Below are positions 2,767 through 18,135 of a DNA stretch of 64,000 nt, piece by piece. Below the pieces are notes generated by a model. The model saw only the letters and a program-made list of their open reading frames with translations, was not told the origin of the DNA and ran no database searches. The stretch covers positions 6,510,001 to 6,574,000 of the forward strand of contig NZ_CP043761.1 in the NCBI RefSeq assembly GCF_008386395.1, in the 5' to 3' direction. The translations under genes were made by a program, and so were the position numbers. Position 1 is the first letter of the stretch. Every line of letters starts with the position of its first letter. Origin of the DNA: Paenibacillus sp. 37 (GTDB lineage Bacteria; Bacillota; Bacilli; Paenibacillales; Paenibacillaceae).

Positions 2767-4374
2767 TTACCGTCCGCGACGAGAATCGCGACGGTCGCCC
2801 TTCGCCGGTCCGCGTCCTGCGGATTCCGGACGGCGAGAGCCTTCGCTGCTGCGCCCGGAGGTACGCTTGTCGGCGCTACGGCCAGCCCAGCCGCTGCTAG
2901 CTGCACCACGTCCGCCTTGGCCCGCTGCACTGCGACTGCTGTCGCTGCTGCGCGCGGAACCACGACCTGCGCTGCGCTCGTCGCCACTGCGACCCGCACC
3001 GCGTCCACCTTGACCTGCTGCTCCGCGACTGCTGTCGCTGCTGCGGCCACCGCTACGACCACCACTGCGTCCGCCTTCACTGCGTCCACCTTCGCCTCCG
3101 CGGGAACCACGACCTCCACGTCCGCCATCTCTGCGATCGTTACGGCCTGCACCCCGACGTGCGCTTCCTGTTCCGGAAGAGCGTCCGCCTGAACGTTCGT
3201 CATCACCCTGACTGTTGATGGAACGTCTAGCTGCTCCAGTTGAAGCAATTGGACCTTCGCTTGTCCACTGGATACGGGACAACTTCTGGTCAATACCTTG
3301 TTCAATACGTGCAAGTTCCGGTCTGTCATGTTCTGTTGCAAACGTTACAGCAAGACCTGTACCACCTGCACGGCCCGTACGACCGATCCGGTGAATATAA
3401 CTTTCCGCATCATGCGGCATATCGTAGTTAAATACATGCGTAACGCCTTCAACATCAAGTCCACGTGCAGCTACATCTGTAGCAACCAGCACTTGCAGTT
3501 TGGCATCACGGAACGCTTTCATTACGTTCTCACGCTTGGATTGGGACAGGTCTCCATGAAGTTCATCACTTGCATAACCTGCTTCACGCAGATCTTGGTT
3601 CAGCTTGGATGCACGACGCTTGGTCCGGCAGAAAATAATCGCCAAGTATGGGCGATACGTATCAATCATGCCCCGAAGCGCTTCAAGCTTGCCGCTATCC
3701 GTACATTCCAGTACCTGCTGACGAATCTGTTTGATCGGAATAACAGATTGAGAAGATACCTTCACATCTTCCGGATCTTTCATGTAGGTCTTCGCCAGGT
3801 TGCGAATGCCCTTAGGCATCGTTGCTGAGAACAGCATTGTCTGACGTTTATGTGGGAGCTCGCTAAGGATCGTCTCCACATCGTCCAGGAAGCCCATGTG
3901 CAACATTTGGTCGGCTTCATCCAGCACCAGTTTTTTCACATTATCCAGCTTCAACGTGCCACGGCGCAAGTGATCCAGCAGACGACCCGGTGTACCAATA
4001 ACGATCTGGGTACCGTTCTGCAATTTACGCAGTTGCTTGTCCACATCCTGCCCGCCGTATACGGCAAGCACATGCAGTTTATCGTCGTTTGCCGTGAGCT
4101 TTTTTGCTTCTTCCGTAATTTGCAGCGCAAGCTCACGCGTAGGCGCAATAATCAACGCTTGTGGCGAACGGTCGGATACATTAATTTTCTGAATAATCGG
4201 CAGCAAAAATGCCAGCGTTTTCCCTGTTCCTGTCTGTGCCTCGGCGATAATATCGCGTCCACCCAGCAGTACCGGAATCGAACGCTCCTGTACCGGAGTC
4301 GGCACGGCGATGCCCTGATGTTTCAGGATCTCGCACCATTCCGGGCGAATGCCCAGTTGTTCAAAGTTTGCCAA
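2767..4374 (-). CDS. DEAD-box ATP-dependent RNA helicase with long Arg/Gly-rich tail
   Basis: An RNA helicase that unwinds RNA duplexes with ATP, typically in ribosome assembly, mRNA decay and cold adaptation. The order of motifs is complete: Q motif (PTPVQ), Walker A AQTGTGKT at 46-53, DEAD at 152-155, SAT at 183-185 and HRIGRTGR in the second RecA domain. From about residue 385 to 535 the chain is a low-complexity basic tail of SGGR, RGG and GGRG units, an RNA-binding type of tail seen in CshA/DeaD-like proteins. The start is a TTG at 4374 with GAGGTG seven bases upstream. The tail is GC-rich and repetitive, so large spurious frames appear on the opposite strand. CshA-like is my best family guess; a precise name is uncertain. 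Confidence 0.95.
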   Translation of the reverse strand: MANFEQLGIRPEWCEILKHQGIAVPTPVQERSIPVLLGGRDIIAEAQTGTGKTLAFLLPIIQKINVSDRSPQALIIAPTRELALQITEEAKKLTANDDKLHVLAVYGGQDVDKQLRKLQNGTQIVIGTPGRLLDHLRRGTLKLDNVKKLVLDEADQMLHMGFLDDVETILSELPHKRQTMLFSATMPKGIRNLAKTYMKDPEDVKVSSQSVIPIKQIRQQVLECTDSGKLEALRGMIDTYRPYLAIIFCRTKRRASKLNQDLREAGYASDELHGDLSQSKRENVMKAFRDAKLQVLVATDVAARGLDVEGVTHVFNYDMPHDAESYIHRIGRTGRAGGTGLAVTFATEHDRPELARIEQGIDQKLSRIQWTSEGPIASTGAARRSINSQGDDERSGGRSSGTGSARRGAGRNDRRDGGRGGRGSRGGEGGRSEGGRSGGRSGGRSSDSSRGAAGQGGRGAGRSGDERSAGRGSARSSDSSRSAAGQGGRGAASSGWAGRSADKRTSGRSSEGSRRPESAGRGPAKGDRRDSRRGR

Positions 4375-7069: not shown

Positions 7070-8284
7070 TCACTTTTTGTTTGGAGTATTTTGGGGCCGA
7101 CGTGACAACAATGTCGAGTATTCAGTAATAAAAGCCTTATAGCTCGAGCTGACTTCCAGTTTTCGGTACATATTGACCTTTTCCGTAAAGCGATAGACAT
7201 CCTTGCTCGGAAAATAAATGCTCATTCCTTCTCCCTTGGGGTGTTCAGGAGACTTCATGTTATAAACAACCGCTTTTTGAATTGTTTTTTTGACGCGGTC
7301 CGCCTCGGTCTCAGCTTTCATTCTTTTGCCGATCAAGGTAAACAAATCAGCAAGATCCACCAAATCGGCCTCGTCCGCATAATCCTCGGCTTGATCCCGG
7401 GCTTTTCTCAAATGACTTATTCCCTTTGTCATAGCTTGGGGCTCTAACAATCTTTTGCTGAATGACTCGACTGCCCTCATAACCTCTTCCATCCGATCCA
7501 GTCGAATGATTGATTGCTGAAGGTCCTCCTCTTCGCCGTTTTCCTTCGACTGTTCCAGATATCCTTGAGCAATAGTTCTGCCCAACTCAAGGGTGGAAAT
7601 CCCGGGCTTTTCTTGAACTGCCTTCAGCATTTTTGTATAATCCCACCCATTCTGATTCGTGTAATCGACAGAGGCAAGCATATATTCCCCATAGTTCCTA
7701 AGTGCATAGGCCACCTCCACACTTGCCATTTTGCAATTATCGAAGCCAATGAGTTCAAATTTAATTCCCGTTTCGTTATAGGCGCGTCCAATTCCTTTTT
7801 GAAGCTCGGTCAAGCTCATTTTTTTATTTCCATAGTGCTCGTCGCCGCCGTATCCATCGATCGGTCCAAGACCGTGCCCCCAGAACATAAGCACATGCTT
7901 CCGAGCTGGATATTCACGGGTTCCCCAGCGAATGAAATCTGTAAGGGAATTGGATGTATCCATATTTTGTGAGCCTGCGTTATCCAGAAGGGCCAACCTC
8001 CCCTTTTCAACACGCCATCGTTGATTCAGACCGGACTCAATGGACGAATGGTCCCAGCTTCGAGCCCCTCCTGTCTGAACAACAACATTTACATTGCTGG
8101 AAGAGCCTACACTCATCATTTCCTTCAAGTCATCGCTTGCCATATGAAAATCACTTTCCATATCTGAGCCAATCATATAGATGAGAAAGGTGTAATCGGC
8201 CTGCCGATCGGATGCTTTTAGTTCAGATATAGGAAGAAACGAGACAAGCAGAATGAACACAAACAGCTGTATTGTTCTTTTCAT
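7070..8284 (-). CDS. secreted clostripain-like cysteine peptidase (family C11) in the lasso operon
   Basis: Family C11 peptidases cut after Arg or Lys. From the preferred ATG at 8284 (AAGGAGGG upstream) the protein has 404 residues. It begins with a signal peptide (MKRTIQLFVFILL...ELKA, residues 1-24), so it should act outside the membrane. The catalytic dyad is visible: His137 in FWGHG and Cys184 in GFDNCKMAS. The gene starts 23 bases after the acetyltransferase stop and is the last gene of the lasso peptide operon, without a terminator in between. A basic peptide product with many Lys/Arg residues and a peptidase of this specificity in one operon invites a link (tail trimming, turnover, or leader debris), but that is inference. 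It is not part of the standard lasso toolkit. Confidence 0.87.
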   Translation of the reverse strand: MKRTIQLFVFILLVSFLPISELKASDRQADYTFLIYMIGSDMESDFHMASDDLKEMMSVGSSSNVNVVVQTGGARSWDHSSIESGLNQRWRVEKGRLALLDNAGSQNMDTSNSLTDFIRWGTREYPARKHVLMFWGHGLGPIDGYGGDEHYGNKKMSLTELQKGIGRAYNETGIKFELIGFDNCKMASVEVAYALRNYGEYMLASVDYTNQNGWDYTKMLKAVQEKPGISTLELGRTIAQGYLEQSKENGEEEDLQQSIIRLDRMEEVMRAVESFSKRLLEPQAMTKGISHLRKARDQAEDYADEADLVDLADLFTLIGKRMKAETEADRVKKTIQKAVVYNMKSPEHPKGEGMSIYFPSKDVYRFTEKVNMYRKLEVSSSYKAFITEYSTLLSRRPQNTPNKK

Positions 8285-8307
8285 TGCCATCCCTCCTTGT
8301 TTCCGCT

Positions 8308-8769
8308 CTACACTTTAATATTAGCGATATGCCATAAAGAAAAATAACCGTCTTCATCGGGAGCTTCGTTCTCCAGTACAAAACCAGTAGACTGAAAACA
8401 CTTCAAACAAGCAGCGTTGTCAGCTTCAATTCCGGCGTACCATTTATGGATCGTTTCCAGTTTGGGAAGCTGCATAGCTTTTTCAACCACTGCTCTGCCG
8501 TAGCCCCTGCCTCGAACCGACGGATCGACAACGATGGCAATGCTTCCCGTATTCTGCTCCTCCTGCTCAATCATAATTACACCTACGGCTTTACCCTCCG
8601 AGAACGCTACCCACACGTCATAACCAGGATGCTGCTCCACGTGCTGATGCCACTCGTCTAAAGGAAGCATTCCCTCCAAGCGCCGATGAACCTCTGCATC
8701 CTTAAACCACTCCTCCAGCATCGCCAGATCTCTTACCGTAAACGGTCGCAAATTGTCAATCACGCTCAT
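8308..8769 (-). CDS. GNAT family N-acetyltransferase of the lasso peptide operon
   Basis: Transfers an acetyl group from acetyl-CoA to an amine. It has 153 residues and one GNAT fold; the acetyl-CoA loop is visible as VDPSVRGRGYGRAVV (R86-x-x-G-x-G). The C-terminal part shows the usual N-x-x-A-x-x-x-F-x-x-x-G-F pattern (NAACLKCFQSTGF). The start has AGAGGTGAG six bases upstream. It follows the second ABC exporter by 14 bases. The lasso core has five lysines and a free Arg/Lys-rich tail, so the obvious substrates are lysine amines of the peptide. Two readings exist: a resistance enzyme that disarms product inside the producer (my recollection of the lariocidin system), or a tailoring enzyme as in albusnodin. 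Confidence 0.88.
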   Translation of the reverse strand: MSVIDNLRPFTVRDLAMLEEWFKDAEVHRRLEGMLPLDEWHQHVEQHPGYDVWVAFSEGKAVGVIMIEQEEQNTGSIAIVVDPSVRGRGYGRAVVEKAMQLPKLETIHKWYAGIEADNAACLKCFQSTGFVLENEAPDEDGYFSLWHIANIKV

Positions 8770-8783
8770 TTCATCTCACCTCT

Positions 8784-10589
8784 TTATCTGTATTTTTGAG
8801 CCTGCATATTGTACAGTTCGGCATACCCTGCCCCATTCACCAGCAATTGATTATGAGTTCCCGTCTCCATGATTCTGCCCTGTTCCATATAGACTACATA
8901 ATCTGCGTGTCGTGCAGTGCTCAACCGATGCGAGACGATGACCACCGTCTTGTTCTTCATTAAATCCCGCATTCGTTGGAACACGTCTTCCTCCATGAAC
9001 ACATCAAGCGCAGAAGATGGTTCGTCCATGATCAGCAATCCGGCAATATCCTTTCTCATAAAAGCACGGGATAATGCAATCCGCTGCCATTCTCCTCCTG
9101 AAAGGCTTCTGCCTCCGAATAGCCTGCCTAGCTGTGTATCATATTTTTGCCCCAGCTTGTGGATAAATTCGTCTACTCCGCCCAGCTTGGCAGCTCTTTC
9201 GATTATCTTTTGCTCGTTAACAGCCGCAAGATTACCTAGTCCAATATTGTCCCGAAGATTCATTTCATAGCGCACAAAATCCTGGAATACGGCCGTAGCC
9301 TGTGTCCGATAGGCAGCGATATCATATTCGCACAGCGGAATACCGTTGTAAAACACCACTCCTTCATTAGGATCAAAGAAGCGCAGGAGCAGTTTGACAA
9401 GCGTGCTTTTACCTGACCCGTTTTCACCGACCAACACGGTCACTTTTCCAGCAGGGATGATAAGCTCTGGGATATCCAGAACAACCTTGGTTTCATCATA
9501 CCGGAAACGGACCCCTTCCAGCCGGAAGCCCTCTTTGACAGACACCGCCGGAGGGCATGGGCCTGACTCCATTTCATTCTCGCTATAGAGAAAGGAACGA
9601 ATCTTCTCCAGATGTCTGGCTTCTCTAGGACCAATCGCAAAAGCTGCAAACAATTCATTCATTCCCTCATTCAACTGAATAGTGGCGCCAATAAATAAAA
9701 AGATGTCCCCTGCTGTGAAGTGGCCGGAAAGCGCATGTCCAACTAGATATATAATGATGAGACCGGCGGCCAGCGACTGGAGCACAGACCACAATAATTG
9801 ATGGAGAGCCAGTTTCCGTTGGTCGGCTGAAAGTGTAAGCAGAAGCTCTCGTGATGTGTTCAGATATCTCTCCTTAAAAAAAGGAACAAGACCAAATACC
9901 TTCAGCTCTCCGGCTGTTTCAGGCCTGAGCGGCGTACCAGCGTAATACTCAGCACGCCGCCTTAATTCCTGGACCTCCTCGCGTCCTTCAAAGGTAGCGT
10001 TGTTGAGCTTCGCTTCCCAATACAGCTTGGGAACGACCAACGCCAGCAAGACAATCGGGGCCCAGGGAGCGATCGTTCCAATCATTATACTCCCGGCTGC
10101 AATCACGACCAGTCCTCCGATGGTCTGAGAAATAATCGTTAACCACATTGTAACGAAGTATTCGTTATATTGAATAACCCGAGTTTTTGTATGGAACCCT
10201 GCCTTTTCAAAAGGAGCAATATCCGGAATCGACATTGCTTTGCTGATCAACAACTCATCAATATGTGCTTGAAGTTTTGCAGTCAACAGGCGTTTGTGCA
10301 TCTCTGATACGGGTTGGAGGGCATCCACAACTAATGTTAGCCCAATATACAACAGCACCATCCAAGCCAGCGCATCCCATGATGCAAGAACAAACGGCTG
10401 CTCAGCCAATCTGTCAATGATCTTGGCACTCAGCCACACAAGCAGCGGACCAAGCAATGCCTCAAGCACTTTAATGGCAAAAACGGTACACACTTTTACT
10501 GGCGAGCATGTCCATAACAAGGACAGTCCAAACAAAACGGAGGAAGCCATATGTCGTCGCCTGGCTGTGATTCGTTGCAATGCTATCAC
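8784..10589 (-). CDS. ABC transporter, fused membrane and ATPase domains (second lasso exporter half)
   Basis: A half-transporter of the type that exports peptides: about six membrane segments (to residue 320) and then an ATPase domain with Walker A GENGSGKST, signature LSGGE, Walker B GLLIMDEP and switch His (VSHRLS). I place the start at the GTG at 10589, which overlaps the stop of the preceding exporter gene (GTGA) with GGGGAGGAG eight bases upstream (601 aa); an in-frame ATG upstream would cut far into the neighbour. With two half-transporters made by coupled translation, a heterodimer is likely. Its role in the cluster is export of the finished lasso peptide and thereby self-protection. 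Confidence 0.92.
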   Translation of the reverse strand: MIALQRITARRRHMASSVLFGLSLLWTCSPVKVCTVFAIKVLEALLGPLLVWLSAKIIDRLAEQPFVLASWDALAWMVLLYIGLTLVVDALQPVSEMHKRLLTAKLQAHIDELLISKAMSIPDIAPFEKAGFHTKTRVIQYNEYFVTMWLTIISQTIGGLVVIAAGSIMIGTIAPWAPIVLLALVVPKLYWEAKLNNATFEGREEVQELRRRAEYYAGTPLRPETAGELKVFGLVPFFKERYLNTSRELLLTLSADQRKLALHQLLWSVLQSLAAGLIIIYLVGHALSGHFTAGDIFLFIGATIQLNEGMNELFAAFAIGPREARHLEKIRSFLYSENEMESGPCPPAVSVKEGFRLEGVRFRYDETKVVLDIPELIIPAGKVTVLVGENGSGKSTLVKLLLRFFDPNEGVVFYNGIPLCEYDIAAYRTQATAVFQDFVRYEMNLRDNIGLGNLAAVNEQKIIERAAKLGGVDEFIHKLGQKYDTQLGRLFGGRSLSGGEWQRIALSRAFMRKDIAGLLIMDEPSSALDVFMEEDVFQRMRDLMKNKTVVIVSHRLSTARHADYVVYMEQGRIMETGTHNQLLVNGAGYAELYNMQAQKYR

Positions 10590-12547
10590 TGGATATGCTC
10601 CTCCCCTTGAAAAGATTTTCCCTGCAAACGGAACATGGTGGCATACTCCCCATTTTTGCACATTAAGGCCTCATGGCTACCTTCTTCCACAATACAACCA
10701 TTTTTCAGGACAAGTATTCGATCTGCTAGTTTAACCGTGCTGAACCGATGAGAAATCATGATCACCGTTTTACCTTTTGTCATTTTTTGAAACTGATTGA
10801 AAATCTCATATTCAGCCCGAATGTCAAGGGACGCAGCCGGTTCATCCAGAATGACCAGACCTGCTTGACGAACCATCGCTCTGGCTAACGCCACGCGTTG
10901 CCATTGTCCACCTGAGAAATCAGTACCTCCCCATTCGGGGCCCAAGAGGGTTTCGATTCCATGAGGCAGCGCCGAAACGATCTGGTCCAGCCTTGAATCT
11001 TGAAGTGCCTGATTTATCTCCCTGTCGCTCAGTTGTGTGTTCGGGCTGCCGATCATAATGTTCTCGCGCAGGGATAACTCGTATTTTCCGAATTCCTGAA
11101 AAACAACCGAGATATGCTCTCTCAGCTCCCTGACATCAAACGAGCGAATATCCACCCCGTTGATTTTAATCTCGCCTTCGCAAAACTCATAGAAGCGGCA
11201 CAACAGCTTGACAAGTGTCGTTTTACCCGACCCATTGGCGCCAACAATCGCGATGCGCTCCCCGGGCGATATGCTGAAACTGATATGGTCAAGAACCCAG
11301 GGGGAACGTTTATCTTCACTCTCATAAACATCCTCAGCATAGTCGTGGACTTCGTCCTCGTTTTCGTCATCAATTTCCTCACTGTCCAGGTCCAGGTCGA
11401 AATCATCAGCTGCTTCCTCGGAAGCAGCACTCTCCTGTTCCTGGTAAGGATACTTGAAGCTTACTCCCTTGAATTCTATAGATAGGGGGCCAGCATTCAC
11501 TGGAATGGGATGTGAAGGCTTCTGGATATCTTCCTCTGCATTCATAAATAAGACGAAATCATTTCCCATTCTCCAGATATCAATCGTGTCTGCCCCTTCC
11601 TTGGCAATCTCTCTTAAGGAAACAGACAATTGAAACACAGCCCCTAAATACAGAGCAATATCCCCCAGCGAAATCGAGCCCGATCCAGATTGACTTACTA
11701 CCCAAAAGTATGCTCCTCCTGCCACCATACCCGAAAAAAGACCGGTAAAAACCGTTCCTTTGGCGCTTTTGGCCTGGATCATTCGAAATTGTTCATACAG
11801 CAGAGCAAACGTGTGTTGATAGATGTTATGGAAATGGCTGCCCAAACCAAACAGGCGAATTTCCTTGGCGGCACGTCGACTAATCACGAGGCTTCGAGTA
11901 TAATCCAATCTTCTTCTTATAACTGCATATTCTTTGGCATATTGCCATTCCATCTCGTTGTAACGGTTCTGCATGAACGCAAAAGGAGCGGTTGACAGCA
12001 CCAGAATGATGGACAGCATCGGAGAGAGCACGGCAATCAGCATAATAATACCAATAGCTGAGAACACAGACGTGCACATACTTGCGCTGAAGTTCAGGAG
12101 CTGTGCAGGCAACCAATTGGAGCGATCCCGCAGCGCTTCCAGCCGGTTTCGGTGTTTCTCCTCTTCAAAAAAGCGCATGCCGGGAATACGTTCGAAGGCA
12201 TCCAACAAAACACTGTTCACGGTAATGACGGATCGCTCCGATAGCAGCATTTTAAGCCAGGTTTGTGCGGCGTTCACGATGCTAAGCAAGACCAGACTAC
12301 AAGCATAGACAATAGACCACCGTGCCGCGTATGATCCTAATCCGTTTGGCGCAATTCCATCGATGATTTGTTTAGAGGCATAGAGCTGAAGTGCTGGAAC
12401 AGCACCCTCAATGAATATGAACAAAATGATTAGCAAGGTTAACACCGGACCAGATTGCCATAACATTCGCACAAGCAAATGGGTCGTTTGCCGTGTTCGT
12501 TGTGCTCTGCTGCACCGTTCTTCATGATCAAACATGTGTTTCTCCAT
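10586..12547 (-). CDS. ABC transporter with acidic insertion in the ATPase domain (first lasso exporter half)
   Basis: A 653-residue half-transporter: membrane domain to about residue 320, ATPase domain from about 355 with Walker A GANGSGKTT (436-444), signature FSGGQ and Walker B LVILDEP. Unusual is residues 370-412 (bases 11312-11440): 23 Asp/Glu in 43 positions and hardly any basic residue, inserted right after the A-loop tyrosine (SFKYP) and before PWVLDHISF. Typical family members have a few residues here. The gene starts 34 bases after the cyclase stop and overlaps the next exporter gene. It probably pairs with that protein to export the cationic lasso peptide. Contact of the acidic segment with the cargo is my inference. 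Confidence 0.92.
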   Translation of the reverse strand: MEKHMFDHEERCSRAQRTRQTTHLLVRMLWQSGPVLTLLIILFIFIEGAVPALQLYASKQIIDGIAPNGLGSYAARWSIVYACSLVLLSIVNAAQTWLKMLLSERSVITVNSVLLDAFERIPGMRFFEEEKHRNRLEALRDRSNWLPAQLLNFSASMCTSVFSAIGIIMLIAVLSPMLSIILVLSTAPFAFMQNRYNEMEWQYAKEYAVIRRRLDYTRSLVISRRAAKEIRLFGLGSHFHNIYQHTFALLYEQFRMIQAKSAKGTVFTGLFSGMVAGGAYFWVVSQSGSGSISLGDIALYLGAVFQLSVSLREIAKEGADTIDIWRMGNDFVLFMNAEEDIQKPSHPIPVNAGPLSIEFKGVSFKYPYQEQESAASEEAADDFDLDLDSEEIDDENEDEVHDYAEDVYESEDKRSPWVLDHISFSISPGERIAIVGANGSGKTTLVKLLCRFYEFCEGEIKINGVDIRSFDVRELREHISVVFQEFGKYELSLRENIMIGSPNTQLSDREINQALQDSRLDQIVSALPHGIETLLGPEWGGTDFSGGQWQRVALARAMVRQAGLVILDEPAASLDIRAEYEIFNQFQKMTKGKTVIMISHRFSTVKLADRILVLKNGCIVEEGSHEALMCKNGEYATMFRLQGKSFQGEEHIQ

Positions 12548-12581
12548 TCTTCTGCACCTTTATCATCGAAATGTCCTTGGA

Positions 12582-14588
12582 TCAGGCATGAAAATACAAG
12601 CGTTTCTTCTCATTCATATTGACCTCCTCAATGTCTCCGAGCATCCTTGCCGGAGAAGGTCTGGAGCGGTTGAGCACATGTTCTTTGCCACGACTCATCT
12701 CCTGCAGCCAGATCTCCAAGTCGATAACAGAGCGCATATATTGGTAACCCATACCCAAATCATTATTCGGGTCCTCCGAACGGATCGCCATAGCGACTAG
12801 ATGTTTCCACCACGATCTCTGGTCAATAATCCCCAGTTCCGTAACATACACACGCTTTCCGCTCGCGAACAATTGCAAAATATGCTGGCGGTCATTCAAA
12901 AAGCTTTTCCTGGCCATATGGGCATAGGTTGTTTTGGAAGACCTGTTATAGACATACGAAGGCAAGATATCTGTGAATGCTTTTCGAAGCAACAGCTTGG
13001 AACCGGCATAGCTTTCTTGCTCACCCTTGAGGAGATCAAAGTGCTGCTCTGGCGGAACCGAGAACGAAAACTCGATTATGCGCCTGTCCAGAAACGGATG
13101 ATACGCAGGCAAGGTCACACCTACAGCATCCATGTATCTTGCACGAGGCCACAGAAAGTCGTAATGATAACGCTTCCCCCAGTAGTTTAGCGGCCTGCTT
13201 TTGCGATATCGGTGAACCTCCTCCGCATTCATCTGCCGTTCTCTCTGGAGATGTTCATTGGTAAAGAATTCGGGCAAGTCATATTCTGTATCCGACCATA
13301 ACAGCTTGTAGTACCATTTTTCACCAAAATAAGGCAAGAATGGAGCCAAACCATATTGAAATCCCTTTTTCAGCATAGGTCCTACTCGATTGCCAGCCCA
13401 TTCCCGAAGTTCACGAATACCTTCCCGATAACGCTTTTGCCGGAAATAAGAATCAATGACAGCAACTTCGCCGCTATATACAAAGTCTCCGCCTTCACCT
13501 GTCAAAACGGCAGCAGTCCGAAATTGCCGAGCCAGCACCGTAAATGTCTCATTCACAAGCGAATTGGCTCGAGGGTCTGGACCATCCACAAACCATAGCG
13601 GGTCCCTGCCAATTTCGGCATTGGGTATTCTGGCCGTTTCGTCCGCATGAATGATCAAGCCGGGAATGCGCAGATCCCTCATCATTTTTTTGACGAGATC
13701 CTTATCATGGCTTGGCATCATATCCGGTTCCGCAAAAGAAATGTTAACAGCCAGAATCTGCTCTTGGTTCCCGCTGGCAATGGCGGCAGCTACAACCGCG
13801 GCTGAGTCGAGCCCTCCGCTCAATTCAACCATTCGTTTGTTGCCATTAAAGCGTTCCTGGGTCACCTGCTCCAGCAATTGACGAAATTGGGGGACAGCAT
13901 CTTCCGTGAGCTGTGGCTTGCTTGTCAGTTCCCGCATTCCCCAGTAGCTTTGAACTTTCACCTGGTGATTGTTCCACCAAGCAATGGAGGCTGTGGGAAG
14001 CTTGCGAATGCCTTTAAAAAAAGTCCGCTCTTCCAGTCCGTTCTCCCCTACAGCAAAGCCAGAAGTCGGATACATTCGGCACACGTCTTCATCGACCTCA
14101 AAAGGAATATCCTGAAGCAACAAAAGCACGCGTAGATCATTGGCAACAAACCATTCATTTCTTGGGCTAATCCAGTAATAAACGGGTCGGGTTGCATAGC
14201 TATCCGTAGCAACAATTAAACTGCTTCGTTTCTGGTCCCAGTACACCAGTGTAAATTCCCCTTGGGACTTGCATAGTTGATATTCAGGTTTCTCTTGCAG
14301 CAAACGATACGCCTGCTCCTGCTGATCAGATGAAAGGGACGGGAAATCATCGGCATGGGCTTGCAGCTCGCCGCTGGCCCAGCCATCCAGAATGATGGGA
14401 AAATCAAGACGGATATCCGCCGAAGTACTGGAAGCCTGTGCTCCATAACCGTAGGAGAGCGTTGCTAAATGGAACGTATCTTCCGTATAACCATTCACAC
14501 CGGTAACCCTTGCCCACCTTTTAATTGAATCCATCCAATCCAACCAAATACTTTGATTTTGGCCTTGCATAGCGATCCATATCTTCAT
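12582..14588 (-). CDS. lasso peptide cyclase (asparagine synthetase-like C protein)
   Basis: Activates the side-chain acid of core residue 8 as an AMP ester and joins it to the freed N-terminus, closing the lasso ring round the tail. The protein resembles asparagine synthetase B: an N-terminal glutaminase-like half without the catalytic Cys at position 2, then an ATP-pyrophosphatase half with the PP-loop SGGLDS at 257-262. I choose the ATG at 14588 (668 aa), which overlaps the B2 stop (ATGA); a GTG at 14606 is possible but has a poorer ribosome site. The order B1-B2-C downstream of the precursor is typical of Firmicute lasso clusters. Confidence 0.94.
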   Translation of the reverse strand: MKIWIAMQGQNQSIWLDWMDSIKRWARVTGVNGYTEDTFHLATLSYGYGAQASSTSADIRLDFPIILDGWASGELQAHADDFPSLSSDQQEQAYRLLQEKPEYQLCKSQGEFTLVYWDQKRSSLIVATDSYATRPVYYWISPRNEWFVANDLRVLLLLQDIPFEVDEDVCRMYPTSGFAVGENGLEERTFFKGIRKLPTASIAWWNNHQVKVQSYWGMRELTSKPQLTEDAVPQFRQLLEQVTQERFNGNKRMVELSGGLDSAAVVAAAIASGNQEQILAVNISFAEPDMMPSHDKDLVKKMMRDLRIPGLIIHADETARIPNAEIGRDPLWFVDGPDPRANSLVNETFTVLARQFRTAAVLTGEGGDFVYSGEVAVIDSYFRQKRYREGIRELREWAGNRVGPMLKKGFQYGLAPFLPYFGEKWYYKLLWSDTEYDLPEFFTNEHLQRERQMNAEEVHRYRKSRPLNYWGKRYHYDFLWPRARYMDAVGVTLPAYHPFLDRRIIEFSFSVPPEQHFDLLKGEQESYAGSKLLLRKAFTDILPSYVYNRSSKTTYAHMARKSFLNDRQHILQLFASGKRVYVTELGIIDQRSWWKHLVAMAIRSEDPNNDLGMGYQYMRSVIDLEIWLQEMSRGKEHVLNRSRPSPARMLGDIEEVNMNEKKRLYFHA

Positions 14589-15049
14589 CCCAGAGATAGC
14601 ACCCACCTCTCGGCATATTCGCTCATATTATATATTTTCAATACCTTCAAATCATTTCCTTTATGATTGGGGTCAATGGTCCGACCGTCTTCCAGACGCA
14701 CCCATGCGTGAGAGAACAGTTTTTCATCTATCTTTTTCACACCGATCAACAAGTCACTTTCATAGCCAGCACTGAACAAAATGGCCTGAACTGTCATAGC
14801 TATGGATACACATGAGGTGATGAGATGATCATTTTCATCCATTTCATACATCATCTGCCCCAGTCTGCACAATTCGTCCGTCTCAATCCGATTCGCTTCC
14901 CTTCGGCCTGCGCTTACATGAAGAGGGTACATATGTATTGCAATTTTTTCATAAGCATCCACAAAATCCGTCTCCAGTAGTAACAGGCGGACAAAAGCAT
15001 GAACCGTTGTGAAATACACCTTGTTATGGATAGGAATGGCCTTACTCAT
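14585..15049 (-). CDS. lasso peptide leader peptidase B2 (transglutaminase-like)
   Basis: Removes the leader so that the first core residue gets a free amine for cyclisation. It has 154 residues, the usual size of the stand-alone protease half. The Cys-His-Asp triad of the transglutaminase-like fold is visible: Cys80 (ITSCVSIA), His114 (FSHAWVRL) and Asp126 (RTIDP). The start overlaps the B1 stop (ATGA at 15049-15046), and the stop overlaps the cyclase start, so B1, B2 and C are translationally coupled. B2 proteins act with the B1 recognition protein, which fits the fixed stoichiometry. Confidence 0.94.
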   Translation of the reverse strand: MSKAIPIHNKVYFTTVHAFVRLLLLETDFVDAYEKIAIHMYPLHVSAGRREANRIETDELCRLGQMMYEMDENDHLITSCVSIAMTVQAILFSAGYESDLLIGVKKIDEKLFSHAWVRLEDGRTIDPNHKGNDLKVLKIYNMSEYAERWVLSLG

Positions 15050-15315
15050 GAGACATCGACCTTGACCAGTTTTTTAGCCGAGAGTTCCTGAATTGCATTT
15101 TGCAAAATAACGGTTAATTCTGCTTCGGATTGATCAAATTCGCTTTTCCATTTACTCAGAATTTGGTTGAACTCCCTTGTTCCAGTCTCCAGTTCCAGCC
15201 ACAGCTCCATCAACGCGCCCTCGAGCCCAAAATATTCACCGTTATTGATGTCCAGCACGATACATTCCTCACTTAATGACGTGGTGGCAGTTTCCTCGCT
15301 TCGGGCAATTTTCAT
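15046..15315 (-). CDS. lasso peptide RiPP recognition element B1 (PqqD-like)
   Basis: A small PqqD-fold protein that binds the leader peptide and presents it to B2 and C. I choose the ATG at 15315 (89 aa) because GAGAGGGG lies about nine bases upstream; a TTG at 15336 would start inside that ribosome site. Family marks are the N-terminal beta hairpin with IVLDINNGEYFGLEG, then a helical half ending in LSAKKLVKVDV. It follows the precursor gene after a hairpin at 15364-15387, which suits much higher precursor than enzyme output. Confidence 0.92.
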   Translation of the reverse strand: MKIARSEETATTSLSEECIVLDINNGEYFGLEGALMELWLELETGTREFNQILSKWKSEFDQSEAELTVILQNAIQELSAKKLVKVDVS

Positions 15316-15363
15316 GCCTGCAACCCCTCTCTGCAAGGTAATATGTAGTATATGGAAATGACT

Positions 15364-15387
15364 AGAGAGAGCCGCAAGGCCCTCTCT
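15364..15387 (-). terminator. hairpin between precursor and B1, probable partial terminator or mRNA stabiliser
   Basis: On the minus strand AGAGAGGGCC and GGCTCTCTCT form a 10-bp stem (one G-U pair) with a TTGC loop. No T run follows, so full termination is unlikely. Such hairpins behind RiPP precursors typically raise precursor mRNA over downstream genes. Confidence 0.6.
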
Positions 15388-15411
15388 GGTGAACTTATAA
15401 TGCCTTTGAAA

Positions 15412-15528
15412 TTAACCACGTTTTACTCCACGACCGAATTTTCCATCTCCCGGCTTACTTTTCTTGGAGAGAGTTACTGTTAGGAAAGCACCATAACTCT
15501 TCAAAGGAGCCATTTGAACTTTACGCAT
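15412..15528 (-). CDS. lrcA: lasso peptide precursor (38 aa), lariocidin-like
   Basis: A 38-codon gene: ATG at 15528, TAA at 15414-15412, GGTGG ribosome site about eight bases upstream. The leader (20 residues) carries the lasso recognition pattern L9-x3-G13-x5-T19, with Thr at the penultimate leader position. Cleavage after Leu20 gives the core SKKSKPGDGKFGRGVKRG (18 residues). Ser1 as N-terminal nucleophile and Asp8, the only acidic residue, define an 8-residue macrolactam ring; the tail GKFGRGVKRG threads it. The core has five Lys and two Arg. Size, Ser1-Asp8 ring and charge agree with my memory of lariocidin, an antibiotic from Paenibacillus that binds the small ribosomal subunit; I could not compare residue by residue. 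The gene is followed by a hairpin and the B1-B2-C genes. Confidence 0.92.
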   Translation of the reverse strand: MRKVQMAPLKSYGAFLTVTLSKKSKPGDGKFGRGVKRG

Positions 15529-15694
15529 ATACTTCACCACCCCTCTACTTGAAATATATTACATTTTTAATATATCATAGAAATAATGGGTTTTGTCCGA
15601 AGACAATCCCCAATAACCGCCAAGATTCCACAAACCTGCTTTTTACGGTTATTTTACGGTCCGAAAAGAAAATAATACATACGAGGTGCATATC
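15529..15694. promoter_or_regulatory. divergent promoter region of lasso operon and its regulator, with repeated sites
   Basis: TTTTACGGT occurs twice at 15641-15649 and 15652-15660, 11 bp apart (one helical turn). AATAACCG (15612-15619) and CGGTTATT (15646-15653) form an 8-bp inverted repeat with centres 34 bp apart (about three turns). Towards the precursor a TATGAT-like -10 (15574-15579, minus strand) lacks a good -35, as expected for an activated promoter. These are candidate binding sites for the adjacent response regulator. Confidence 0.5.
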
Positions 15695-16321
15695 ATGCTG
15701 AACGTAATTCTGGTAGACGATCATAAAGCATTCACCTGTGGAATGAAGCTCATTTTGGAACAAAACCATATGAAGGTAACCGTACTTCATTCAGCCCTTG
15801 AAACGCTGGACTTCATAAAAGAGCAGGCCAATGCAATAGACCTTTACCTGTATGACTTGTCTATGCCGGACCTCAACGGGATTGAACTGGCAACTAAAAC
15901 GATGGAGATCATTCCTGATGCAAGAATCATGCTTTTCTATTCCCAAGAGGATATGATTCAGCTGTTTCAAATGTCCGTCCAAGCAGGCATCCGCGGATTT
16001 ATCGACAAGTCTTTTTCAGCACAGCAGGTGCTCACAAGCATTTCCATGTGCATGGAAGATGCGGTTGTCTTTTCTCTGGATTTCTTTAAATCGATTCTCA
16101 CTCCGACAGCTTCCTTTAACGCGCCTGAAACTATGCTGACCGAGTTCGAAATTAAATTGCTACAACAGGTGGCCAAAGGAGAAACCAATAAACAAATTGC
16201 GGAATCTCTTTTTATGTCTACTCGAAATGTCGAATATCATCTGGGGCGTGTTTATCGAAAGTTGAGGGTCAGCTCCAGAAGTTATGCCGTTCATAAATGC
16301 AAGATTCTTAAATTGATATAA
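15695..16321 (+). CDS. NarL/LuxR-type response regulator, probable activator of the lasso operon
   Basis: A two-domain regulator of 208 residues. The receiver domain (1-120) has the acidic pair Asp8-Asp9, the phosphorylation site Asp54 (LYDLSMPDLNG), Ser83 and Lys105, so phosphorylation should work. A LuxR-type helix-turn-helix follows at about 145-205 (LTEFEIKLLQQVAKGETNKQIAESL in parts: KGETNKQIAESL, VEYHLGRVYRKL). The ATG at 15695 has GAGGTG six bases upstream. It is divergent from the precursor gene and shares its promoter region. No histidine kinase gene is nearby, so the signal comes from elsewhere. Size and layout recall ComA, the competence and quorum regulator of Bacillus; control by population density is only a guess. 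Confidence 0.87.
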   Translation: MLNVILVDDHKAFTCGMKLILEQNHMKVTVLHSALETLDFIKEQANAIDLYLYDLSMPDLNGIELATKTMEIIPDARIMLFYSQEDMIQLFQMSVQAGIRGFIDKSFSAQQVLTSISMCMEDAVVFSLDFFKSILTPTASFNAPETMLTEFEIKLLQQVAKGETNKQIAESLFMSTRNVEYHLGRVYRKLRVSSRSYAVHKCKILKLI

Positions 16322-16513: not shown

Positions 16514-18135
16514 CTAGAATCTTCCTGATTTGAATATCGAATAGAGCAGGAAAGCCACCATCAGAATCGCCACCAGGAAACCAATCTCAATGACCGGAAT
16601 ATCCCACAGCATCGTGGACTGATGACTGATCGACGAACCGATAATCAGGCCCACCATGATGATACAAAAGGCGAGCAGCACGATACTGAAGGACAGCCGA
16701 TTACTGATCTGATCCATTCTGCGCATGAGTGCATCCAGTTCAGGGACACTGATCTCCAGCCTCAGCTTGCCTTTGCTAATAATGGATGATAATTGCCTTA
16801 ACTGCCCTGGCAGACCAATGACACTCTCGGCCATATCAGCCGCACTGCGGAACAAGCGATTCTTGATTCTTCCGGCGCTAAAACGTTCCTTGATCAGCTT
16901 ACGGCCAAAGGGCTCGGCCATATCTACAATGCTCAATGAAGGATCAAGATGTTCAATCACACCTTCCATCGTAAGCAACGATTTACCGAGCAGCAGAATA
17001 TCCGCAGGCATGACAACCCGGTGCCTCTGAGCTACGCCGAACAAGTCATTCAACGCCTGACCCACACTGATCTTGGAAAAGGGAATATCGTAATATTTGC
17101 TACGCAACTTGTCCAAATCCACATGAAGACCACGCAGGTCCATGTCATCTGGCATCATGCCGAGCTTCTCAATCGCCCGGATCATACTGTCTGTATCTTT
17201 GCGCATTAACCCAATAATAAGCGAAGCGAGCTGCTGTTTCATCTCATCACTCAGACTGCCCACCATACCGAAGTCTATAAAGGCAAGACGTCCATCCTTT
17301 AATACCATCAGATTGCCCGGATGTGGGTCAGCGTGAAAGAATCCCTGAATAAAAATCTGATTTAATAATGAATCCACCAGCCGCTCGGCAATGTTATTCA
17401 GATCATGACCGCGTCTGACCAGTTCTTTACGATCATTGAGTTTGATACCTTCGATATACTCCATAGTGAGCACACGGGACGAAGTCTGATCCCAGTAAAT
17501 TGTCGGGATTTTCACCTTGTTGTCCTGTTGGTATTGCTGTGCAATCTTTTCCGCATATTCTTCGACCATTTGCGGAATCTGATATTGCTTCACCCATTCC
17601 CAGCGCTTCTCGGCCATGGCTGTCAGTTCACGCAAGATATCCAGGTCACGCTGCACAATACGCGATATGCCCGGCCGCTGAATCTTGTGGCTACCAATTC
17701 ACCGCTTTGAAGTTTGCCCAGATGTACCTGTCCAATGCTGGCCGCAGCTACAGGGGTATCCTCGAACCGGGAAAAGATCTCCTCCAGCGGTGTATCCAAT
17801 TCCTGTTCCAAAATACCCCGTGCCGTCTCGGACGAGAACGGCGGGACCTGATCCTGCAACTTCACCAACTCACGAATGACAGACTCAGGCAACAGATCTG
17901 CCCTTGTGCTTGCGAGTTGCCCCAGCTTAACGAAAGCTGGCCCCAGCTCCTGCAGCACAAGCCTGATGCGTTCACTCAGCGTTTTGGTGGTGTGTGCTTC
18001 ACGCGACATCCACCGTCTGGGCAGAGCCAGTAACTGGAACAAACCCAGCTCCTCGACCATATAACCGAAGCCATGACGCACGAGCGCCATGGCAATTTCA
18101 CGGTATCTGCCGACATGTTTGATTCGCACTGCCAT
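16514..18135 (-). pseudogene. AarF/ABC1/UbiB family kinase-like gene, broken by a one-base frameshift
   Basis: Two frames together make one AarF/UbiB protein (about 540 residues). The first (18135 to 17623, ATG at 18135) carries the N-terminal motifs: KLGQLASTRADLLP, the QDQVPPFS region and AAASIGQVH. It then runs into nonsense after GELVAT. The second (up to 17656) continues with the kinase core: IQRPGIS, HADPHPGNL, FIDFGMVG, and two C-terminal membrane helices. At 17684-17687 the sequence reads ...GCCACAAGATTCAG; one more A would give VATKIQRPGIS, restoring frame and the ATP-binding Lys of the VA-x-K motif. So a single A is missing, in a short A run. This is either a recent mutation or a base-calling error. 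UbiB-like kinases act on membrane lipid or quinone pathways. The upstream phasin-like gene ends directly before it. Confidence 0.85.

Follow-up and report, generated by a model that had tools for sequence, protein, structure and literature searches.

The lrc gene cluster of Paenibacillus sp. 37

The window (the whole 64,000-nucleotide stretch of the Paenibacillus sp. 37 genome that was analysed, whose numbering is used below unless a contig or locus is named) contains a complete lasso peptide gene set, A-B1-B2-C-D1-D2-E-F, arranged as one minus-strand run from 15528 to 7070 (Table 1). All genes named lrcA, B1, B2, C, D1, D2, E and F in the report on lariocidin (PMC11451635) are present, with the D1/D2 exporter, the GNAT LrcE and the clostripain LrcF all in the cluster.

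Table 1. Features of the lrc locus and its divergent regulator
Feature	Position	Strand	Evidence and remarks
lrcA, lariocidin precursor	15412..15528	-	NF050021, 4.1e-22; core identical to printed lariocidin
lrcA, leader part	15528-15469	-	20 residues
lrcA, core part	15468-15415	-	18 residues, then stop
lrcB1, PqqD-like leader-binding protein	15046..15336	-	PF05402, 25.5 bits (cut-off 23.4)
lrcB2, transglutaminase-like leader peptidase	14585..15049	-	PF13471; NF033537, 37.5 bits (cut-off 33)
lrcC, asparagine-synthetase-like lasso cyclase	12582..14606	-	PF00733; 94% identical in P. polymyxa ISL-58
lrcD1, ABC exporter half	10586..12547	-	PF00005, PF00664; acidic linker, residues 368-413
lrcD2, second ABC exporter half	8784..10661	-	PF00005; frame from GTG 10661 overlaps lrcD1, start uncertain
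lrcE, GNAT acetyltransferase, self-resistance gene	8308..8769	-	PF00583; role per PMC11451635, PMC13352647
lrcF, clostripain-family peptidase, trims Gly18	7070..8290	-	PF03415, 2.6e-38; role per PMC11451635
LuxR/NarL-type response regulator, divergent	15686..16321	+	PF00072, PF00196; end gene of conserved unit 7084-16321

The lrcA gene consists of 38 codons and a stop, encoding the leader MRKVQMAPLKSYGAFLTVTL followed by the core SKKSKPGDGKFGRGVKRG. An earlier note on this DNA, made from the sequence alone, had placed a 38-codon lasso precursor gene ahead of complete B1, B2 and C genes; this was borne out, with the coordinates right and all of these genes on the minus strand, which the note had left unstated. 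The tract aggggtggtga lies directly 5' of the lrcA ATG, and an in-frame GTG at 15540 is a less likely start because this ribosome-binding tract overlaps it. The leader has the spacing L9-x3-G13-x5-T19 with Thr penultimate, as had been read before. P-x-L is a wider element of lasso leaders; it is absent from the LrcA leader, which has P-L instead. The core carries Ser1, a single Asp at position 8, seven Lys/Arg residues and no further acidic side chain, in agreement with the earlier counts, thus combining the small N-terminal residue and the Asp/Glu at positions 7-9 of a lasso precursor.

The NCBIfam model NF050021 ('lariocidin family lasso peptide') scores LrcA at 77.8 bits (cut-off 40) and has this single match across the 7.6-Mb genome (7.62 Mb, two contigs), which places lrcA beyond chance; the core-domain model NF050022 is also above its cut-off. 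A chance open reading frame or a different lasso precursor at this position is ruled out by the exact match of the core to lariocidin. The description of the gene as easily missed is fair at 38 codons, but NCBIfam models for lariocidin precursors now exist. B1, B2 and C all score above the Pfam cut-offs, while among the NCBIfam lasso models only that for B2 is above its cut-off, those for B1 (NF033536) and C (NF033535) falling below theirs. The lrcB1 frame opens at TTG 15336, and the internal ATG of MKIARS is the likelier start.

Identity with lariocidin and proposed maturation

A text search for the core across 5.39 million open papers found it printed in one, where SKKSKPGDGKFGRGVKRG is letter for letter the lariocidin of Table 1 (PMC12427821). 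Its monoisotopic mass minus one water, computed from the sequence, is 1870.065 Da, compared with the reported 1870.06 Da (PMC11451635), and Ser1, Lys2, Pro6, Gly7, Asp8, Phe11, Arg17 and Gly18, the lariocidin residues named in PMC11451635, all agree with the LrcA core. The earlier note had suspected lariocidin and proposed comparing the core with the published sequence; the two are identical, and the suspicion is confirmed by the printed core, the computed mass, the named residues and NF050021. The window thus almost certainly contains the lariocidin biosynthetic cluster, and the earlier interpretation is supported. The peptide itself is an already published, known antibiotic, and its high basic charge, rightly singled out before as unusual, is no longer new, being a stated property of lariocidin (PMC11451635).

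Work on Paenibacillus sp. M2, whose peptide has the same core, has shown ring, structure, target and activity, including a threaded ring, 30S binding, translocation block and miscoding (PMC11451635). In the proposed pathway, LrcB1 would bind the leader and LrcB2 would cut after Leu20, and LrcC would close the ring around the threaded tail by coupling the Asp8 side chain to the amine of Ser1, which would use up the only acidic side chain and leave the seven basic residues. The product would be exported by LrcD1/D2, and acetylation by LrcE would protect the producer. The latter role is a hypothesis in PMC11451635, and acetylation as lariocidin self-resistance is stated as demonstrated in a 2026 review (PMC13352647). 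LrcF is reported to take off Gly18, and the second ring of LAR-B to join Arg17 to Lys2 (PMC11451635); Gly18 removal would likewise lead to LAR-B and LAR-C here. Lariocidin would then act on the 30S subunit beside the decoding centre, blocking translocation and causing miscoding.

Relatives and natural core variants

NF050021 matches 4/75 genus genomes and 5/295 family genomes (a sample that left out G050), three of the latter five being also on the genus list. Six cores were compared, from the window genome, G028 (P. polymyxa ISL-58, locus L005), G035 (L010), G050 (L011), G288 and G094. The window genome and ISL-58 share SKKSKPGDGKFGRGVKRG, G035 and G050 share SKKSKPGDGKNGRGVKRG, G288 has AKKNKPGDGKNGLGVKKG, and G094 has the 17-residue AKKSKPGDGKFGRGKKG, its boundary set by analogy. 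KPGDGK is invariant in all six. Phe11, which stacks on U531 (PMC11451635), is replaced by Asn in three of the six natural cores, and Arg17, the ring partner in LAR-B, is missing from those of G288 and G094. Some of these variants may figure in PMC11451635, since 29 lrc-like clusters are mentioned there.

The B1, B2, C, D1, D2, E and F proteins are 87-97% identical in the three genus relatives (L005, L010, L011). By a search at 1e-3, the G094 stretch contains no lrcE or lrcF homologue, and for this reason immunity in G094 may be of another kind. NF050022 has two matches in 398 phylum genomes, one in the window genome and the other in G592; the latter was rejected, as it scores below the family cut-off and overlaps a longer ATPase-like open frame in a different reading frame.

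The acidic linker of LrcD1

The linker of LrcD1 (46 residues) contains 23 acidic residues and one basic residue. Net acidic residues were counted in 40-residue segments upstream of the nucleotide-binding domain, and the maximum per protein is 18-24 in six of six LrcD1 proteins, compared with 1-6 in the six LrcD2 proteins and 3-10 in ABC proteins of other lasso loci of the genus (n=8). The controls come from seven fetched lasso loci, six of them with an ABC protein and one (L058) without any passing the motif filter. Of the seven (L054 to L060), control precursors were read in three (L054, L056, L060) through the paeninodin-family model; two home-made precursor patterns, one giving two implausible matches and the other none, were discarded in favour of this model.

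The charge difference suggests that the acidic linker may dock the +7 lariocidin cargo. It is also quite possible that the tract is a neutral disordered linker with no tie to the cargo: low-complexity linkers drift easily, and among the LrcD1 proteins both sequence and length of the linker vary while the charge persists. Against a neutral linker stands the consistency of the acidic charge in LrcD1 compared with LrcD2 and the eight other lasso ABC proteins, although the six LrcD1 are not independent cases because they are related and come from one bacterial family. A search of the open literature for an acidic linker in a lasso-peptide ABC transporter gave no match.

A unit at two chromosomal sites

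The response regulator and lrcA-F form a 9.24-kb unit, complete in 4/75 genus genomes and located at two chromosomal sites. Window positions 7084-16321 align with G035 end to end at 94%, with differing flanks; the alignment runs out at the regulator gene's 3' end on one side and slightly before lrcF ends on the other. The ubiB/sulP site was examined at 30 loci from the 75 genomes: the ubiB and sulP sides adjoin without the unit at 26, the unit is present at three (window genome, ISL-58, G050), and a remnant is found at one (G019). G035 is among the 26 empty loci, its unit being located elsewhere. This distribution suggests that the lrc unit moves between species. In L010, inspection by eye of the frames next to the unit (110 aa or longer) showed no integrase or transposase.

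In ISL-58 (L005 7772-8144 and 17535-17751), the ubiB 3' end is duplicated at both unit edges (95-96% identical, 9.6-9.8 kb apart), possibly a trace of insertion or recombination. In the window, the UbiB-family gene beside the unit (16514..18135, minus strand) is broken into two overlapping frames of 170 and 380 aa; the match lies in an open frame of 394 aa, compared with 552-580 aa in the remaining 74 genomes of the genus, and the matched part falls 48 nt short of that in near relatives. This break may be a real lesion or an assembly error.

Lone lrcE-like genes

A DNA search with the whole unit over the 75 genus genomes (best four or fewer candidates per genome, E up to 1e-8) matched 12 genomes: four with the complete unit, four with part of it and four with lrcD1 only. 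The last group shows just a 65-bp lrcD1 match (E about 1e-8), which is read as general ABC similarity. In each of the partial carriers (G019, G043, G009, G010), the matched part spans lrcE wholly or nearly, and no partial carrier without lrcE was found in the 75 genomes at this sensitivity, which older scraps would escape. NF050021 matches none of the four, and no KPGDGK-like peptide occurs in their fetched stretches.

The G019 remnant, at the ubiB/sulP site (L044 3215-4735), consists of D1 and D2 scraps, an open 151-aa GNAT frame and a truncated lrcF; the GNAT stops a few residues short of the window LrcE, and one stop lies inside the match. In G043 (L053 9360-10093), a 118-bp regulator scrap, an open 155-aa GNAT frame and short D2 and F edges lie in a stretch collinear with G035 on both sides, ending at the same acetyltransferase and YgjP-like genes. 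G009 and G010 carry a GNAT between the same two neighbours, with no other lrc trace beside it; they count as one case, since they are 97% identical to each other and share these neighbours, and their GNATs may be acquisitions rather than losses.

Compared with the full-cluster GNATs, those of G019 and G043 give dN/dS values of 0.05-0.18 in the seven pairs out of eight that were computable, with G043 synonymous changes near saturation; among the full-cluster LrcE of the genus, values are 0.16-0.26 in five of six pairs and 0.53 in the sixth, which has few changes. The values therefore give no sign of relaxed constraint on the G019 and G043 GNATs. The two clear decay cases (G019, G043) are suggestive, short of proof, of a lariocidin immunity gene that can outlast the production genes.

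A rather less probable alternative, still to be taken seriously, is that the lone lrcE-like genes are ordinary GNATs with another substrate and say nothing about lariocidin immunity. GNATs are varied and common, G009 and G010 lack further cluster traces, and the G019 frame ends a few residues early. However, the G019 and G043 GNATs are flanked by lrc scraps, and the complete cluster occupies the corresponding site in a relative; LrcE matches at 1e-15 are rare (8/75 genus genomes); and the four lone GNATs are 71-90% identical to the window LrcE, nearer than the LrcE of the G288 cluster (42%). In the wider family, a GNAT match at 1e-20 occurs in 14/295 genomes, down to 37% identity. A search of the open literature for lasso peptide self-resistance by an acetyltransferase in Paenibacillus gave one paper, on Bacillus mycoides by its title.

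A broader reading is put forward tentatively: the lrc unit could be a travelling production-and-immunity cassette in which selection keeps lrcE on decay, allowing lineages that stop producing to stay protected from their neighbours, with the LrcD1 acidic linker as a cargo-docking device for polycationic lasso exporters.

Regulator and expression

The divergent regulator of the window is 94-95% identical to those beside lrcA in L005, L010 and L011, which are divergent too. Each of the six clusters has a LuxR-type regulator with a receiver-like domain adjoining lrcA; those of G288 and G094 are encoded upstream of lrcA in the same orientation and have no match to the window regulator at 1e-3, the receiver domain in G288 scoring just below the Pfam cut-off. 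The lariocidin-like cluster of G094 has its own histidine kinase in addition to the response regulator upstream (L013 14418-17819, minus strand). From this gene context, we infer that the response regulator controls the lrc cluster. It would be dispensable for biosynthesis as such, because the version rebuilt for Streptomyces, under synthetic promoters, contained only lrcA to lrcF (PMC11451635); in that report the word 'regulator' occurs in the reference list only.

We likewise infer, from the gene content, that the strain of the window produces lariocidin. That the cluster is silent or inactive in the strain despite its intact sequence, for example kept off by the regulator, is improbable: the regulator is an orphan divergent from lrcA with no kinase gene directly beside it, and no promoter-like site on the minus strand came out of a sigma-70-type scan of 15300-15800 (a consensus scan, which carries little weight in either direction), but all lrc frames are open and the genes are closely similar to those of the relatives.

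Other features of the genome and window

Three condensation-domain frames of 5025, 1128 and 6348 aa lie at C1:6120103-6161130, in an arrangement that we take to be the polymyxin synthetase layout. This layout is compatible with strain M2, the source of published lariocidin, which also carries a colistin cluster (PMC11451635), and would fit relatives too. Next to another lasso cluster, the window genome also encodes two acidic-core precursors of paeninodin type in tandem (L054 8687-8960; C1:2050686-2050960), and elsewhere it has a third lasso-like cyclase and B2 pair (C1:6684999-6686654). Within the window, a DEAD-box helicase-like frame has a tandem 93-nt repeat (2890-3075) in the region of its C-terminal tail.

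Implications

The window provides a complete lariocidin cluster, and the same core is encoded by P. polymyxa ISL-58, a named relative. Natural analogues altered at positions 1, 11 and 17 point to the ribosome contacts that vary in evolution. Should the products of the lone lrcE genes acetylate lariocidin, relatives of the producer would already carry protection against this new antibiotic class separately from its production, which would bear on how the reported low propensity of lariocidin for resistance is read. The remaining interest thus lies in the decay pattern, the LrcD1 linker and the natural variants. Lone-lrcE decay, unit mobility, the linker and Asn11 were not found in the accessible lariocidin text; variants or lone lrcE may be covered in the 2025 Nature lariocidin, triculamin-evolution or 2026 ACS Infect Dis acetyltransferase papers.

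Comparison with known systems

The closest known system is the lariocidin cluster of Paenibacillus sp. M2 (PMC11451635), which has the same 18-residue core, the same mass as computed here and, by gene names, the same lrcA-B1-B2-C-D1-D2-E-F set, with no known difference at the level of core, mass and gene types compared. The clusters of P. polymyxa ISL-58, G035 and G050 contain the same eight genes and adjacent regulator, with 93-94% DNA identity over the unit; ISL-58 differs in one leader residue of LrcA, core position 11 is Asn in G035 and G050, and the unit of G035 occupies another chromosomal site than that of the window genome.

The triculamin family likewise comprises basic antimycobacterial lasso peptides, shares the NF050022 core-domain model, has a core that differs from that of lariocidin at five positions (PMC11451635) and involves self-resistance via lysine acetylation (PMC13352647). 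By contrast, the triculamin precursor equivalog NF050031 gives LrcA only 19.1 bits (cut-off 65). The paeninodin-type lasso peptides of the genus, found in the window genome as well, are also encoded beside cyclase and B2 genes, but their four cores from three loci have net charges of -2 to -4, compared with +7 for the LrcA core, and the ABC proteins of these three loci, with net acidic counts of 8, 10 and 4 per 40 residues, lack a strongly acidic tract.
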